A DNA stretch of 33,455 nucleotides, from contig CADDYR010000009.1 in assembly GCA_902810765.1 (NCBI GenBank), positions 1 through 33,455 on the forward strand, written 5' to 3'. The notes under the pieces are model-generated. The model had not been told where the DNA came from. It ran no database searches and saw only the letters and a list, made by a program, of their open reading frames with translations. Positions 13,924 to 28,999 of the stretch are shown here, piece by piece; the first letter of the stretch is position 1, and every line of letters begins with the position of its first letter. Both the position numbers and the translations under genes were made by a program. The stretch is from Chloroflexota bacterium (GTDB lineage Bacteria > Chloroflexota > Chloroflexia > Thermobaculales > Thermobaculaceae).

Positions 13924-13935
13924 TCAGGTCACAGT

Positions 13936-25267: not shown

Positions 25268-25346
25268 CGTTCGTGATATGACCGCGGGGCGTGGGCTTGT
25301 CCCGCGCATCCCCGACGCCGGACGAGCACCGTACTACTACCGGGTG

Positions 25347-25511
25347 CCATCCTGAACCCTTCGCTCAAGAGCCTGCTCTGAGCTTGTCGAAGCGACAAGG
25401 ATTCGCGAAGGATGTTCTGTCTACCCGGCCGGCCATCCTGAGCGGAAGGCGTAGGATCTGGAAGGGCAGATCCCGGAACATACTCTTCGGCCCGCGGCCT
25501 CAGAATGACAG
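25347..25511. repeat. intergenic palindromic repeat (CATCCTGA / GAGCTTGTCGAAG type)
   Basis: Two copies of CCATCCTGA (25347-25355 and 25433-25441), the phrase TGAGCTTGTCGAAGC, an inverted pair CCTTCGC/GCGAAGG, a hairpin GGATCTG/CAGATCC (25454-25473) and the closing TCAGAATGACA, which roughly inverts the opening. Similar 'CTTCGACAAGCTCAGG' and 'GTCATTCTGAGC' strings recur between genes in many bacterial genomes, so this is probably a dispersed REP/MITE-like element. That is inferred from memory of such repeats, not from a search. There is no transposase here. Confidence 0.6.
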
Positions 25512-25605
25512 GTGCGGGGCGGCCTTGGAGCGACACCGGTTGGGGGTGACACTACAATGGCTCGCACCGATGCTGTGTGGCAGTGGTGCGGATTCATCCC
25601 CGGCA

Positions 25606-26300: not shown

Positions 26301-27530
26301 TCATCTGTTGTCTTGGACGGTTTGCTCGCATGCTGCTGGCGTATCGCTGCGGCTTGATTGTCGTGCCGTGGCTTCCTCCATCGTCACATCCGAGCCAAGG
26401 ATGATAGCGATGACGCCGATGGCCAGGACACTCGACAACAGGAGCAGTGCAGGCGTGAGGCCCAGCACTGCCGACAACAGGCCGACCGAGAAGACCGGTA
26501 CGCTGAACCCGATGTACGCTGCCATGTAGTAGCTGGAGATGACCTGCGCTTGAGCTTTTGAAGTCGCGACCTTGCCCGCGAGTGCCAGACTGCCCTTGAA
26601 GGTCCAGCCGTTGCCCACGCCCTCGATGATCATCCCCAGAAGCAGTGTCGCCACCGAGTGAGTGGGAGAGGCCGCGATGATCACGAAAGCTCCGGCGGCC
26701 GTGAGCACCAATCCCCACCTTGTGAGCCTCAACAGGTCGGTGTCGCGCGCCAGCACTTGCGCTACACCACCAGCGAGCATCAACAGCAATACCAGCCCTC
26801 CTGCAGTGGCTAGGTTGTGCAGATGGAGCACGGATACCGTGAACGACGGTATGAGTGCTATCACCGTGCCGTTCAGGGCGAAGAAGACAAAGCCTGCGGG
26901 AGCGATGAACCCGAAGAAAGCCGCTCGGACGCCCCGAGGCACGCCGATAGCCACGCGCGGGCGCAAGGAGCGTGTGCGGGTAACAGTCTCGGCGACGGTG
27001 GAGGATGCGATTACGGCGGTGAGCATGAGCGATACGTGCAGCAGAAAGGGCATCTGATAAGGGTCCCGGCCTACGTACTGCACCAACGCACCTGCTAGCC
27101 CAGGCCCCAGCCCGAACCCAAGCATCGTCGTGAAGCTCGCGAGCAGCAGCGTCCTGGGGCGCTGAGCGGCATCCCTCTGTTCGGCCATAAACGCCGTACA
27201 AGCCCCGAGGAAGCCTCCCGTCGCCACGCCCTGTAGGGCTCGAGCGGCGAACAACATCGCTGGTGTGGAGGCGAAGGCGAAGAGCAGCGAGGCCAGCGTC
27301 ATGACCACGAGCATAGGGAGTATGATCCTCTTGCGCCCAGCACGGTCGGAGAGAGGACCTATCAGCAACAGCGAGGGCAACAAGCACACTGCGTAGATCG
27401 TGAACAGCAGCGTGATATCCGTGGTGCCTATACCGAACCTGCTTTGGTAGAGAGGGAAGAGCGGGGTCGCCAGGTTGGTCCCGGTAGTGAAGACCAACAA
27501 TGTCCACCATAGCCGTTTCACGTTACTCAC
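26301..27530 (-). CDS. MFS transporter (12 TM, DHA1-like)
   Basis: 409 aa with about 12 hydrophobic helices. MFS motif A is present in GPLSDRAGRKRII, and the fifth-helix glycines in GFGLGPGLAGALVQYVG resemble the antiporter motif, so efflux is likely. The GTG at 27530 overlaps the stop of the upstream CGNR regulator as GTGA, implying translational coupling. A second GTG at 27521 has AAAGG 8 nt before it and could be the true start. Base composition looks less GC-rich and AGG less frequent than in the surrounding genes, which may mean transfer. The autoregulated operon layout suggests a regulator that senses the compound this protein exports. Confidence 0.9.
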   Translation of the reverse strand: MSNVKRLWWTLLVFTTGTNLATPLFPLYQSRFGIGTTDITLLFTIYAVCLLPSLLLIGPLSDRAGRKRIILPMLVVMTLASLLFAFASTPAMLFAARALQGVATGGFLGACTAFMAEQRDAAQRPRTLLLASFTTMLGFGLGPGLAGALVQYVGRDPYQMPFLLHVSLMLTAVIASSTVAETVTRTRSLRPRVAIGVPRGVRAAFFGFIAPAGFVFFALNGTVIALIPSFTVSVLHLHNLATAGGLVLLLMLAGGVAQVLARDTDLLRLTRWGLVLTAAGAFVIIAASPTHSVATLLLGMIIEGVGNGWTFKGSLALAGKVATSKAQAQVISSYYMAAYIGFSVPVFSVGLLSAVLGLTPALLLLSSVLAIGVIAIILGSDVTMEEATARQSSRSDTPAACEQTVQDNR

Positions 27531-28099
27531 CTTTCTTGTCGCCGCTCGGCTCTCTCACGCCAGCCACACGGATTCTCGGCGTGCCATCTCGCGCTCCGAT
27601 TGCGAGTGGTGTCGTAGAAGAACAGGCCGCACTCCTCGCGCTCACATACCTTGAGGCGTGTCGGATCGCAGTCGGCCAGCTCTCGTACACAGGTCGAGGC
27701 GATACGCCCCACGAGGTCCTCGCCCACCGGCTGCTCGTCCAGATTTAGATCCAGTGTGAGGCGCTGGGTCCAGGCACAGCGTGATGCCAGCGAGTTGAGG
27801 AGCCTGCGCGATGCCTCGGGGATACGGCTTCCAGAACCTCGGGTAGAGCGTGCGTTGGAATGAGTCAGGGTTGTAACGATTTCTTCCAAGGCTTTGCGCA
27901 GCAGGCGCAGGTCCTCCAAACACACATCTATGTCGATCGGTGTGACGTCGGGCAGTAATCCCCACAAGAAGCCCTGAGCGGACTCCGGTAGTGCCAGTGG
28001 ATCCGTGTACGTAGAAGTTCTTGTTCCAGATGGCCTCCGCGGTCGTCGTGAGTTTGCAAGCGCCAGGACTACATCCGGGACTTCACATCGCGTTGCCAT
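27527..28099 (-). CDS. CGNR-type zinc-finger transcriptional regulator (variant motif)
   Basis: 190 aa. The C-terminus resembles the CGNR zinc finger: LKVCEREECGLFFYDTTRNRSARW, then HAENPCGWRERAERRQ. Two Cys in C-x5-C spacing are followed by a third position that is His instead of the usual Cys, and a final Cys, so zinc could be held by three Cys and one His. The signature itself reads CGWR rather than CGNR. The N-terminal part (DLRLLRKALEEIV ... RRLLNSLASR) fits the ABATE ligand-binding region of this family, which often controls stress or antibiotic genes. A GAGGTG site lies 9 nt before the ATG. It is the first gene of an operon with the MFS transporter, under a promoter buried in a long palindrome. 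Confidence 0.8.
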   Translation of the reverse strand: MATRCEVPDVVLALANSRRPRRPSGTRTSTYTDPLALPESAQGFLWGLLPDVTPIDIDVCLEDLRLLRKALEEIVTTLTHSNARSTRGSGSRIPEASRRLLNSLASRCAWTQRLTLDLNLDEQPVGEDLVGRIASTCVRELADCDPTRLKVCEREECGLFFYDTTRNRSARWHAENPCGWRERAERRQER

Positions 28100-28111
28100 T
28101 GCTCCACACCT

Positions 28112-28154
28112 CACATCTTCACGATCTATTAATACTATAGACCGTGAAGATGTG
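28112..28154. promoter_or_regulatory. 43-bp near-perfect palindromic operator
   Basis: Outer arms CACATCTTCACG (28112-28123) and CGTGAAGATGTG (28143-28154) match at 12 of 12. Inner TCTAT/ATAGA continue the symmetry after one mismatch, leaving 7 central bases. It covers the -10, the spacer and part of the -35 of the CGNR promoter, so a bound dimer or tetramer would block it. Confidence 0.75.
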
Positions 28155-28157
28155 CAA
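28129..28157 (-). promoter_or_regulatory. sigma70-type promoter of the CGNR/MFS operon
   Basis: Minus strand: -35 TTGCAC (28152-28157), 17-nt spacer, -10 TATTAA (28129-28134). Expected start near 28122, 23 nt before the ATG, inside the left palindrome arm. Confidence 0.6.
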
Positions 28158-28273: not shown

Positions 28274-28285
28274 ATACATATGTAT
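28274..28285. promoter_or_regulatory. 12-bp perfect palindrome, possible RHH operator
   Basis: ATACATATGTAT, in an AT-rich patch unlike the surrounding DNA, about 3-14 nt past the predicted start site of the GGDEF-RHH gene. Size and symmetry fit a ribbon-helix-helix dimer site, making autorepression plausible. Confidence 0.5.
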
Positions 28286-28312: not shown

Positions 28313-28999
28313 ATGGGATACCCCAACACGTTCGAGCTGGCCGCGACCGACAGGATGACCGGGCTGGCTACTGCGGACTACTTCAGGCACCTGCTTCGGG
28401 AGGAGCTGCTGCCACGGGCGAGGGAGTCGGATGGGCCGCTGAGCCTGTTCCTGTTCGACCTGGACGACTTCCTGGCCATCAACCAGAGGCACGGGCGCGG
28501 GGGAGGCGACGCGGTGCTGACGAGGGTCGCGGGCGCGCTCACGGAAGCCCTGCCCGAGACCGCCGTGCTCACCCGGTACGGCGGGGACGAGTTCGGGGGC
28601 GCGCTGCCCGACACCCGCCTGGACGATGCTTTCACCCTCCTCGAGGAGCTCAGAAGGAGGGTGGGCTCGCTCGAGTTCGAGGGGCTGCCGGGCGTGCGCA
28701 TCACCTGCTCGATCGGGCTCGCGGCGTTCCCCATTCATGGTCAGACCGACGCGGAGCTGATGCGGCAGGCGGACGAGGCTCTCTACATCGCGAAGGAGAG
28801 CGGGCGGAACAAGGTCGCGCTGCCCCTCGCGGACAGCCGGATGGTCACGAAGACGAGCTACTACACTCAGACCCAGCTCGAGAGGCTGTCGAGGCTCGCG
28901 AAGACGCTCGGGCGGAACGAGGCGAGCATCCTGCGAGAGGCGCTCGACGACGCGCTGAAGAAGTACAACGATCAGCTGGGCGCCCCACCCGAACGGTGA
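28313..28999 (+). CDS. GGDEF-domain protein fused to a C-terminal ribbon-helix-helix DNA-binding domain
   Basis: 228 aa. Residues about 10-170 form a GGDEF (diguanylate cyclase) domain: ATDRMTGL start, metal site LFDLDDFLAIN, intact YGGDEFGG at Gly90-Phe94, and DEALYIAKESGRNKV near its end. The RxxD inhibitory site five residues before GGDEF is absent, and the usual Lys of DxFKxIN is Leu. Residues about 180-217 (TSYYTQTQLERLSRLAKTLG then RNEASILREALDDAL) read as a CopG/Arc-type ribbon-helix-helix: a short strand followed by two helices. There is no sensor or membrane segment. The ATG at 28313 has GAGAGGTGAGG upstream; ATG 28298 is possible. It likely makes or binds a cyclic or plain guanine nucleotide and binds DNA. 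That link is inference. Confidence 0.85.
   Translation: MGYPNTFELAATDRMTGLATADYFRHLLREELLPRARESDGPLSLFLFDLDDFLAINQRHGRGGGDAVLTRVAGALTEALPETAVLTRYGGDEFGGALPDTRLDDAFTLLEELRRRVGSLEFEGLPGVRITCSIGLAAFPIHGQTDAELMRQADEALYIAKESGRNKVALPLADSRMVTKTSYYTQTQLERLSRLAKTLGRNEASILREALDDALKKYNDQLGAPPER

Follow-up and report, generated by a model that had tools for sequence, protein, structure and literature searches.

A conserved palindrome as candidate operator of a divergent CGNR protein in a Chloroflexota genome

The window analyzed here, a stretch of 33,455 nucleotides (contig CADDYR010000009.1) from a Chloroflexota bacterium, contains a 43-bp palindrome at 28112–28154, which is real, shows conservation and is a candidate operator for a divergent CGNR protein. 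The site lies in a 214-bp intergenic region, 12 bp upstream of the start codon of the CGNR gene (28099, minus strand). It is likely to be the operator of this protein, a dimer of which would repress its own operon until a ligand releases it. At the level of sequence, this reading is supported by the palindrome itself, by its conservation within a clade of CGNR proteins with the finger variant "CGW," by its uniqueness in the genome and by an enrichment of related sites, with NNACC in inverted orientation, in the regions preceding CGNR genes. We infer that the CGNR protein binds here, that it sits on the DNA as a dimer, that it represses and does not activate, and that a ligand releases it. An operator for the CGNR protein had been proposed in the initial annotation, and the proposal gains support from a dyad upstream of the genes of the two nearest relatives and from analogous sites across the family.

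The extent of the palindrome was determined by reading the arm positions in the sequence and by counting pairs in a 43-bp frame. Its perfect 12-bp outer arms, CACATCTTCACG (28112–28123) and CGTGAAGATGTG (28143–28154), each occur only once in the window, and the 5-bp inner arms are TCTAT (28125–28129) and ATAGA (28137–28141), so that 17 of the 21 pairs match (12 outer and 5 inner) around a center at 28133. Direct reading thus bears out the arms and the symmetry first described; of the span then given, 28112–28157, the start is correct, and the end takes in the -35-like hexamer, the palindrome itself stopping at 28154. When the 214-bp intergenic region was resampled 3000 times under a Markov model, the score of 17/21 was never reached. 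One further 43-bp frame in the entire window, a GC-rich hairpin at position 13931, equals it, and several other hairpins have perfect 12-bp arms with a gap of at most 25, for which 0.17 overlapping matches are expected per 33 kb. Because of these comparable hairpins the palindrome by itself is not decisive, and its conservation is. That it arose by chance, as hairpins of like size including the one at 13931 might suggest, can practically be discounted in view of the intergenic resamplings and of a dyad conserved at two distant operons. In the 3.98-Mb genome of the organism, the exact 12-mer is found in these two arms only, and a looser dyad pattern, CACGNTNTA-N8/9-TANANCGTG, occurs once, at the palindrome. 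The perfect 12-bp stem could also fold as RNA, and the palindrome might then be a hairpin, a terminator or the end of a repeat element instead of a protein site; this is hardly plausible, given that no T-run terminator was called, that no Rfam match was found and that the sequence is single-copy in the genome. Moreover, with transcription expected to begin within the palindrome, the RNA would presumably hold one arm only.

The decisive comparison is with two actinobacterial relatives of the CGNR protein. One is encoded on an Actinomycetes MAG contig (locus L038) and is 40% identical to the window protein in the alignment and 34% in the best tblastn segment; it was the sole CGNR relative confirmed by the genome-collection scan. 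The other (locus L088, contig C20 of genome G489), likewise 40% identical, is the best match to the L038 protein, besides itself, in 394 genomes of the class of L038. The three proteins form one clade with the finger variant CGW (SH-aLRT 99 in a quick tree), and a dyad, TCACGGTYTA-N8/9-TAGACCGTGA, is present upstream of all three CGNR operons. At L038 it reads TCACGGTTTA-N8-TAGACCGTGA (full stretch, GTCACGGTTTAATCTTATATAGACCGTGAC) and lies just upstream of an ABM-CGNR operon; at L088 it reads GCACGGTCTA-N9-TAGACCGTGA (full stretch, TTTGCACGGTCTACGGTGACGATAGACCGTGAT), just upstream of an ABM-like-CGNR pair, the ABM family scan having covered L038 only. In the window the corresponding core, TCACGATCTA-N9-TAGACCGTGA (TCACG-N19-CGTGA), occupies 28119–28147 and scores 19/20 against the dyad that it shares with L038 and L088. 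The pattern common to the three loci is TCACGGTCTA-N8/9-TAGACCGTGA, with one mismatch in each and spacings of N9, N9 and N8; the resulting score of 19/20 for each site is partly circular because the consensus was drawn from these same three members. The best score in 127 other CGNR upstream regions is at most 15/20. In the 394 genomes of the actinobacterial class, the dyad pattern, which was composed after all three sites had been seen, was found in two genomes, at these two operons only, and the reversed-pattern control gave none. The motif had been suggested by the window and L038 sites; L088 was located by protein similarity and its dyad was seen afterwards. The gene common to all three operons is that for the CGNR protein, the MFS gene of the window being replaced by an ABM-type gene in the relatives. 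No ABATE domain was reported in the L038 and L088 proteins at E 0.001. Besides G489, no further CGW member was found in 35 genomes of its order, nor, besides the organism itself, in 400 genomes of the phylum of the window, and tblastn of plasmids with the window protein (P0001) gave no match. At L088 a second CGNR gene, with the finger CGDR, adjoins the CGW gene and has a site of its own, GTCACC-N9-GGTGAC; these neighbors, each with its own kind of putative operator, offer a useful internal contrast.

Conservation upstream of homologous operons, which had been named as a check, is thus seen for the inner dyad at both L038 and L088, and the outer extensions CACATCT (28112–28118) and AGATGTG (28148–28154) are private to the window. 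The outer 12-mer CACATCTTCACG, originally put forward as the half-site, is ruled out as the conserved unit: the relatives share its inner part only, and what is conserved is TCACGRTCTA/TAGACCGTGA. Outer arms that are perfect yet absent from the relatives leave room for another arrangement, in which the CGNR protein binds and activates, or acts together with another regulator that uses CACATCT/AGATGTG. We consider it improbable: continuous 12-bp arms would also fit one extended site, and a dimer bound to the core would sit over the -10-like hexamer and the spacer and should obstruct the polymerase. The hexamers in question, both on the minus strand, were read from the sequence: a weak -35-like TTGCAC at 28152–28157 and, 17 nt away and inside the core, a -10-like TATTAA at 28129–28134. 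They had been described as a promoter with correct spacing; their presence and the 17-nt spacing hold, and they are weak, matching the textbook consensus at 3/6 and 4/6 positions, and the promoter scan called none. For the favored reading, a repressor operator, the arrangement would work as follows. A CGNR dimer would bind two inverted half-sites TCACGRTCTA, 29 bp end to end, and thereby cover the -10 and the spacer, so that the operon is repressed; once the ABATE domain takes up a ligand, the operator would be freed and the transporter could be made. The initial annotation had proposed a drug-sensing switch; that the ligand is the transported substrate is a guess, and ligand and induction are suggested solely by the coupling of a transporter to the regulator.

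The regulator gene (27527–28099, minus strand) encodes a protein of 190 amino acids with an N-terminal ABATE domain (PF07336; 29.9 bits, cut-off 24.4, E 9.7e-7) and a C-terminal CGNR zinc finger (PF11706; 44.1 bits, cut-off 24, E 1.7e-11). Its finger is a variant, C-x4-C followed by RWHAENPCGWRER, whereas typical members have RRWCSM..CGNRAK. The four zinc-coordinating cysteines seen in Jann_2411 are not all retained, the third position being His in the window and L038 proteins and Pro in the L088 protein; the window protein is thus assigned to a divergent branch, its family membership resting on the Pfam matches, and zinc binding in it and in the L088 protein may differ from that of the family. 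A CCHC zinc site is possible from the sequence. A structure predicted as a check of the ABATE fold had a pLDDT of 39 and was discarded as unusable. The neighboring gene (26301–27530, minus strand) encodes an MFS transporter of 409 amino acids (MFS_1 match in Pfam), and the two genes share 4 bp (GTGA), in which its GTG start and the CGNR stop overlap. The autoregulation first proposed for a CGNR-MFS operon is supported by this overlap and by the position of the site just before the first start codon: the palindrome lies over the operon promoter, weak as its hexamers are, and the site is conserved with the regulator. The substrate of the transporter cannot be named, because its likeness to many transporter models stays below cut-off; against NCBIfam, no cut-off was reached among the matches listed (25 of 42). 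The pair was probably acquired, perhaps recently, as the GC3 values of its two genes are 0.63 and 0.75, vs. 0.91 in the adjacent GGDEF and LLM genes, and as no close CGNR relative was found in 100 related genomes: in the 101 searched, no full-length orthologue of the CGNR protein was found, and 16 other genomes gave weak matches, mostly over the finger. Frames at about 25290–25540 of the window resemble what we take to be a common intergenic repeat (ALSLSKRQGFAKD).

Divergent from the pair, a GGDEF (diguanylate cyclase) gene occupies 28313–28999 on the plus strand, 28313 being its probable start. The C-terminus of its product resembles a ribbon-helix-helix domain (RHH_3, 20.7 bits, below the cut-off of 21.6), and the protein is possibly a c-di-GMP enzyme fused to a DNA-binding domain. 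A perfect 12-bp palindrome, ATACATATGTAT, is situated at 28274–28285, upstream of the GGDEF start, and is a possible site for this tail. The 43-bp palindrome might itself be the operator of another factor such as this protein, the distance to the start of its gene on the opposite strand being about 160 bp. Such an assignment is very unlikely, considering that the dyad is kept upstream of the ABM-CGNR operons at L038 and L088 and that the GGDEF upstream region has its separate palindrome.

Analogous sites were found across the family. The fetched loci contained 134 CGNR-like frames, 129 of them with a complete upstream side; after exclusion of the three CGW genes, including that of the window, and of regions shorter than 120 bp, the final sets comprised 51 loci of the class of the window and 76 actinobacterial loci, a few doubtful frames being kept in the denominators. 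In 38 class CGNR upstream regions, perfect 6-bp inverted repeats cluster at gaps near 18 (14/38 vs. 2.0 expected). An ORF-internal control was itself uneven over gaps, and the counts are therefore read against Markov and rest-of-locus controls. The strict form TNACC-N-GGTNA has a gap of 18 in 16/51 class loci and of 17 in 5/51, with 0–2 loci at other gaps between 10 and 30; TNACC-N17/18-GGTNA is present in 20 of the 51, at a density of 28 sites in 15.1 kb upstream (1.86/kb) vs. 6 in 136 kb of the rest of the same loci (0.044/kb). In actinobacteria the gap spectrum is noisy for any 6-mer arms, and an N9 peak appears in the ACC/GGT form only: ACC-N9-GGT occurs in 30/76 loci, with 43 sites in 22.5 kb upstream (1.91/kb) vs. 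76 in 233 kb of the rest of the same loci (0.33/kb). A strict match is absent in 31/51 class and 46/76 actinobacterial loci. Counted from the presumed start codon, ACC-N9-GGT is often placed at -63 and -21, and loci such as L107, L113, L143 and L151 have a site at each of these fixed places. By eye, several class loci, e.g., L056 and L075, have a TTGTCA-N16/17-TATAAT-like promoter whose -10 adjoins a GGT half-site.

Because the motifs had first been spotted by eye or in these same counts, ten plasmid loci served as a check with the motif fixed beforehand. They were drawn from 16 distant records matched by tblastn of plasmids with the L038 protein, the other six being mostly near-duplicates by organism and score. 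ACC-N9-GGT is present in 5/10 (one Sphingomonas and four Streptomyces), with 10 sites vs. 1.0 expected, and every other gap from 4 to 30 occurs in at most three loci. ACC-N18-GGT is present in 2/10, one a Rhizobium with two sites and the other within coding sequence. Both Deinococcus loci have GTAAC-N21-GTTAC instead; no NNACC-type site was found in the Rhizobium daejeonense locus, and only a partial one in that of Streptomyces tendae. Three other CGNR genes exist in the genome of the window: those on contigs C168 and C200 have a symmetric NNACC dyad, and none was found upstream of that on C160 (L133). The C160 gene has an MFS gene nearby (weak match to P0002, C160:3942–4424).

The base preceding ACC appears to vary with the finger residue that follows CG. 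In the class set it is A in 13/13 CGN proteins and in 0/8 with another third finger residue (Fisher 1.3e-5 for 13 and 7 class rows, a count that contained some misparsed finger strings). Over 49 rows, 43 agree with this rule, and the six exceptions, all actinobacterial, have CGN but lack the A. The tree yields no more than five independent pairs, three on starred branches, too few for a test of covariation to reach significance. The CGW branch with its TCACG fits the direction of the covariation, with TCACG-N18/19-CGTGA aligned, by our inference, with TNACC-N17/18-GGTNA; the 10-bp half-site would permit other registers. A broader picture, which we regard as having an even chance of being right, is that CGNR/ABATE proteins of several phyla may form a family of transcription factors, for the most part self-regulating, which recognize NNACC half-sites in inverted orientation at two discrete spacings, N9 and N17–18, and in which the residue following CG contributes to the choice of the base ahead of ACC. 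The window may then carry a rare, re-targeted CGW branch, its zinc site altered and TCACG its target, that was horizontally acquired with its operator and transporter.

CGNR/ABATE proteins have been known from a structure since 2009, with a proposed role as transcription factors. As a local switch, the palindrome is of a known kind, and its value lies in the recognition pattern of the family. With a specific half-site, its two spacings and a residue proposed to govern specificity, the DNA target of CGNR proteins becomes open to gel-shift analysis; the pattern would let regulons be predicted for this widespread family, and the CGW branch offers a natural specificity variant. Among the literature matches listed, one paper dealt with a protein of the family and no CGNR operator was found, subscription papers and preprints lying outside the scope of the search.

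For the structurally characterized member, Jann_2411 (PDB 3h0n), light scattering and the packing in the crystal point to a probable dimer; a large cavity lies at its interface, and the finger has been proposed to bind DNA (PMC2954205). The main text of that paper, searched by word, contains no operator, promoter or palindrome. Among solved structures, 3h0n is the sole relative reported for a canonical CGNR member (E 6.8e-5), and the window protein matches it weakly in a single-sequence search (E 0.37). The window protein shares the domains PF07336 and PF11706 with Jann_2411, both above their Pfam cut-offs in the window protein; unlike Jann_2411, it has His at the position of the third Cys ligand and CGWR in place of CGNR. 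Among transporter-linked switches, TetR/TetA and AcrR are autoregulated repressor-transporter systems. The locus described here shares with them a small regulator, a palindrome over the promoter and a coupled transporter. It differs from them in that its regulator has a treble-clef finger in place of a TetR-type HTH, that regulator and transporter stand in one operon, and that repression is here proposed from sequence.
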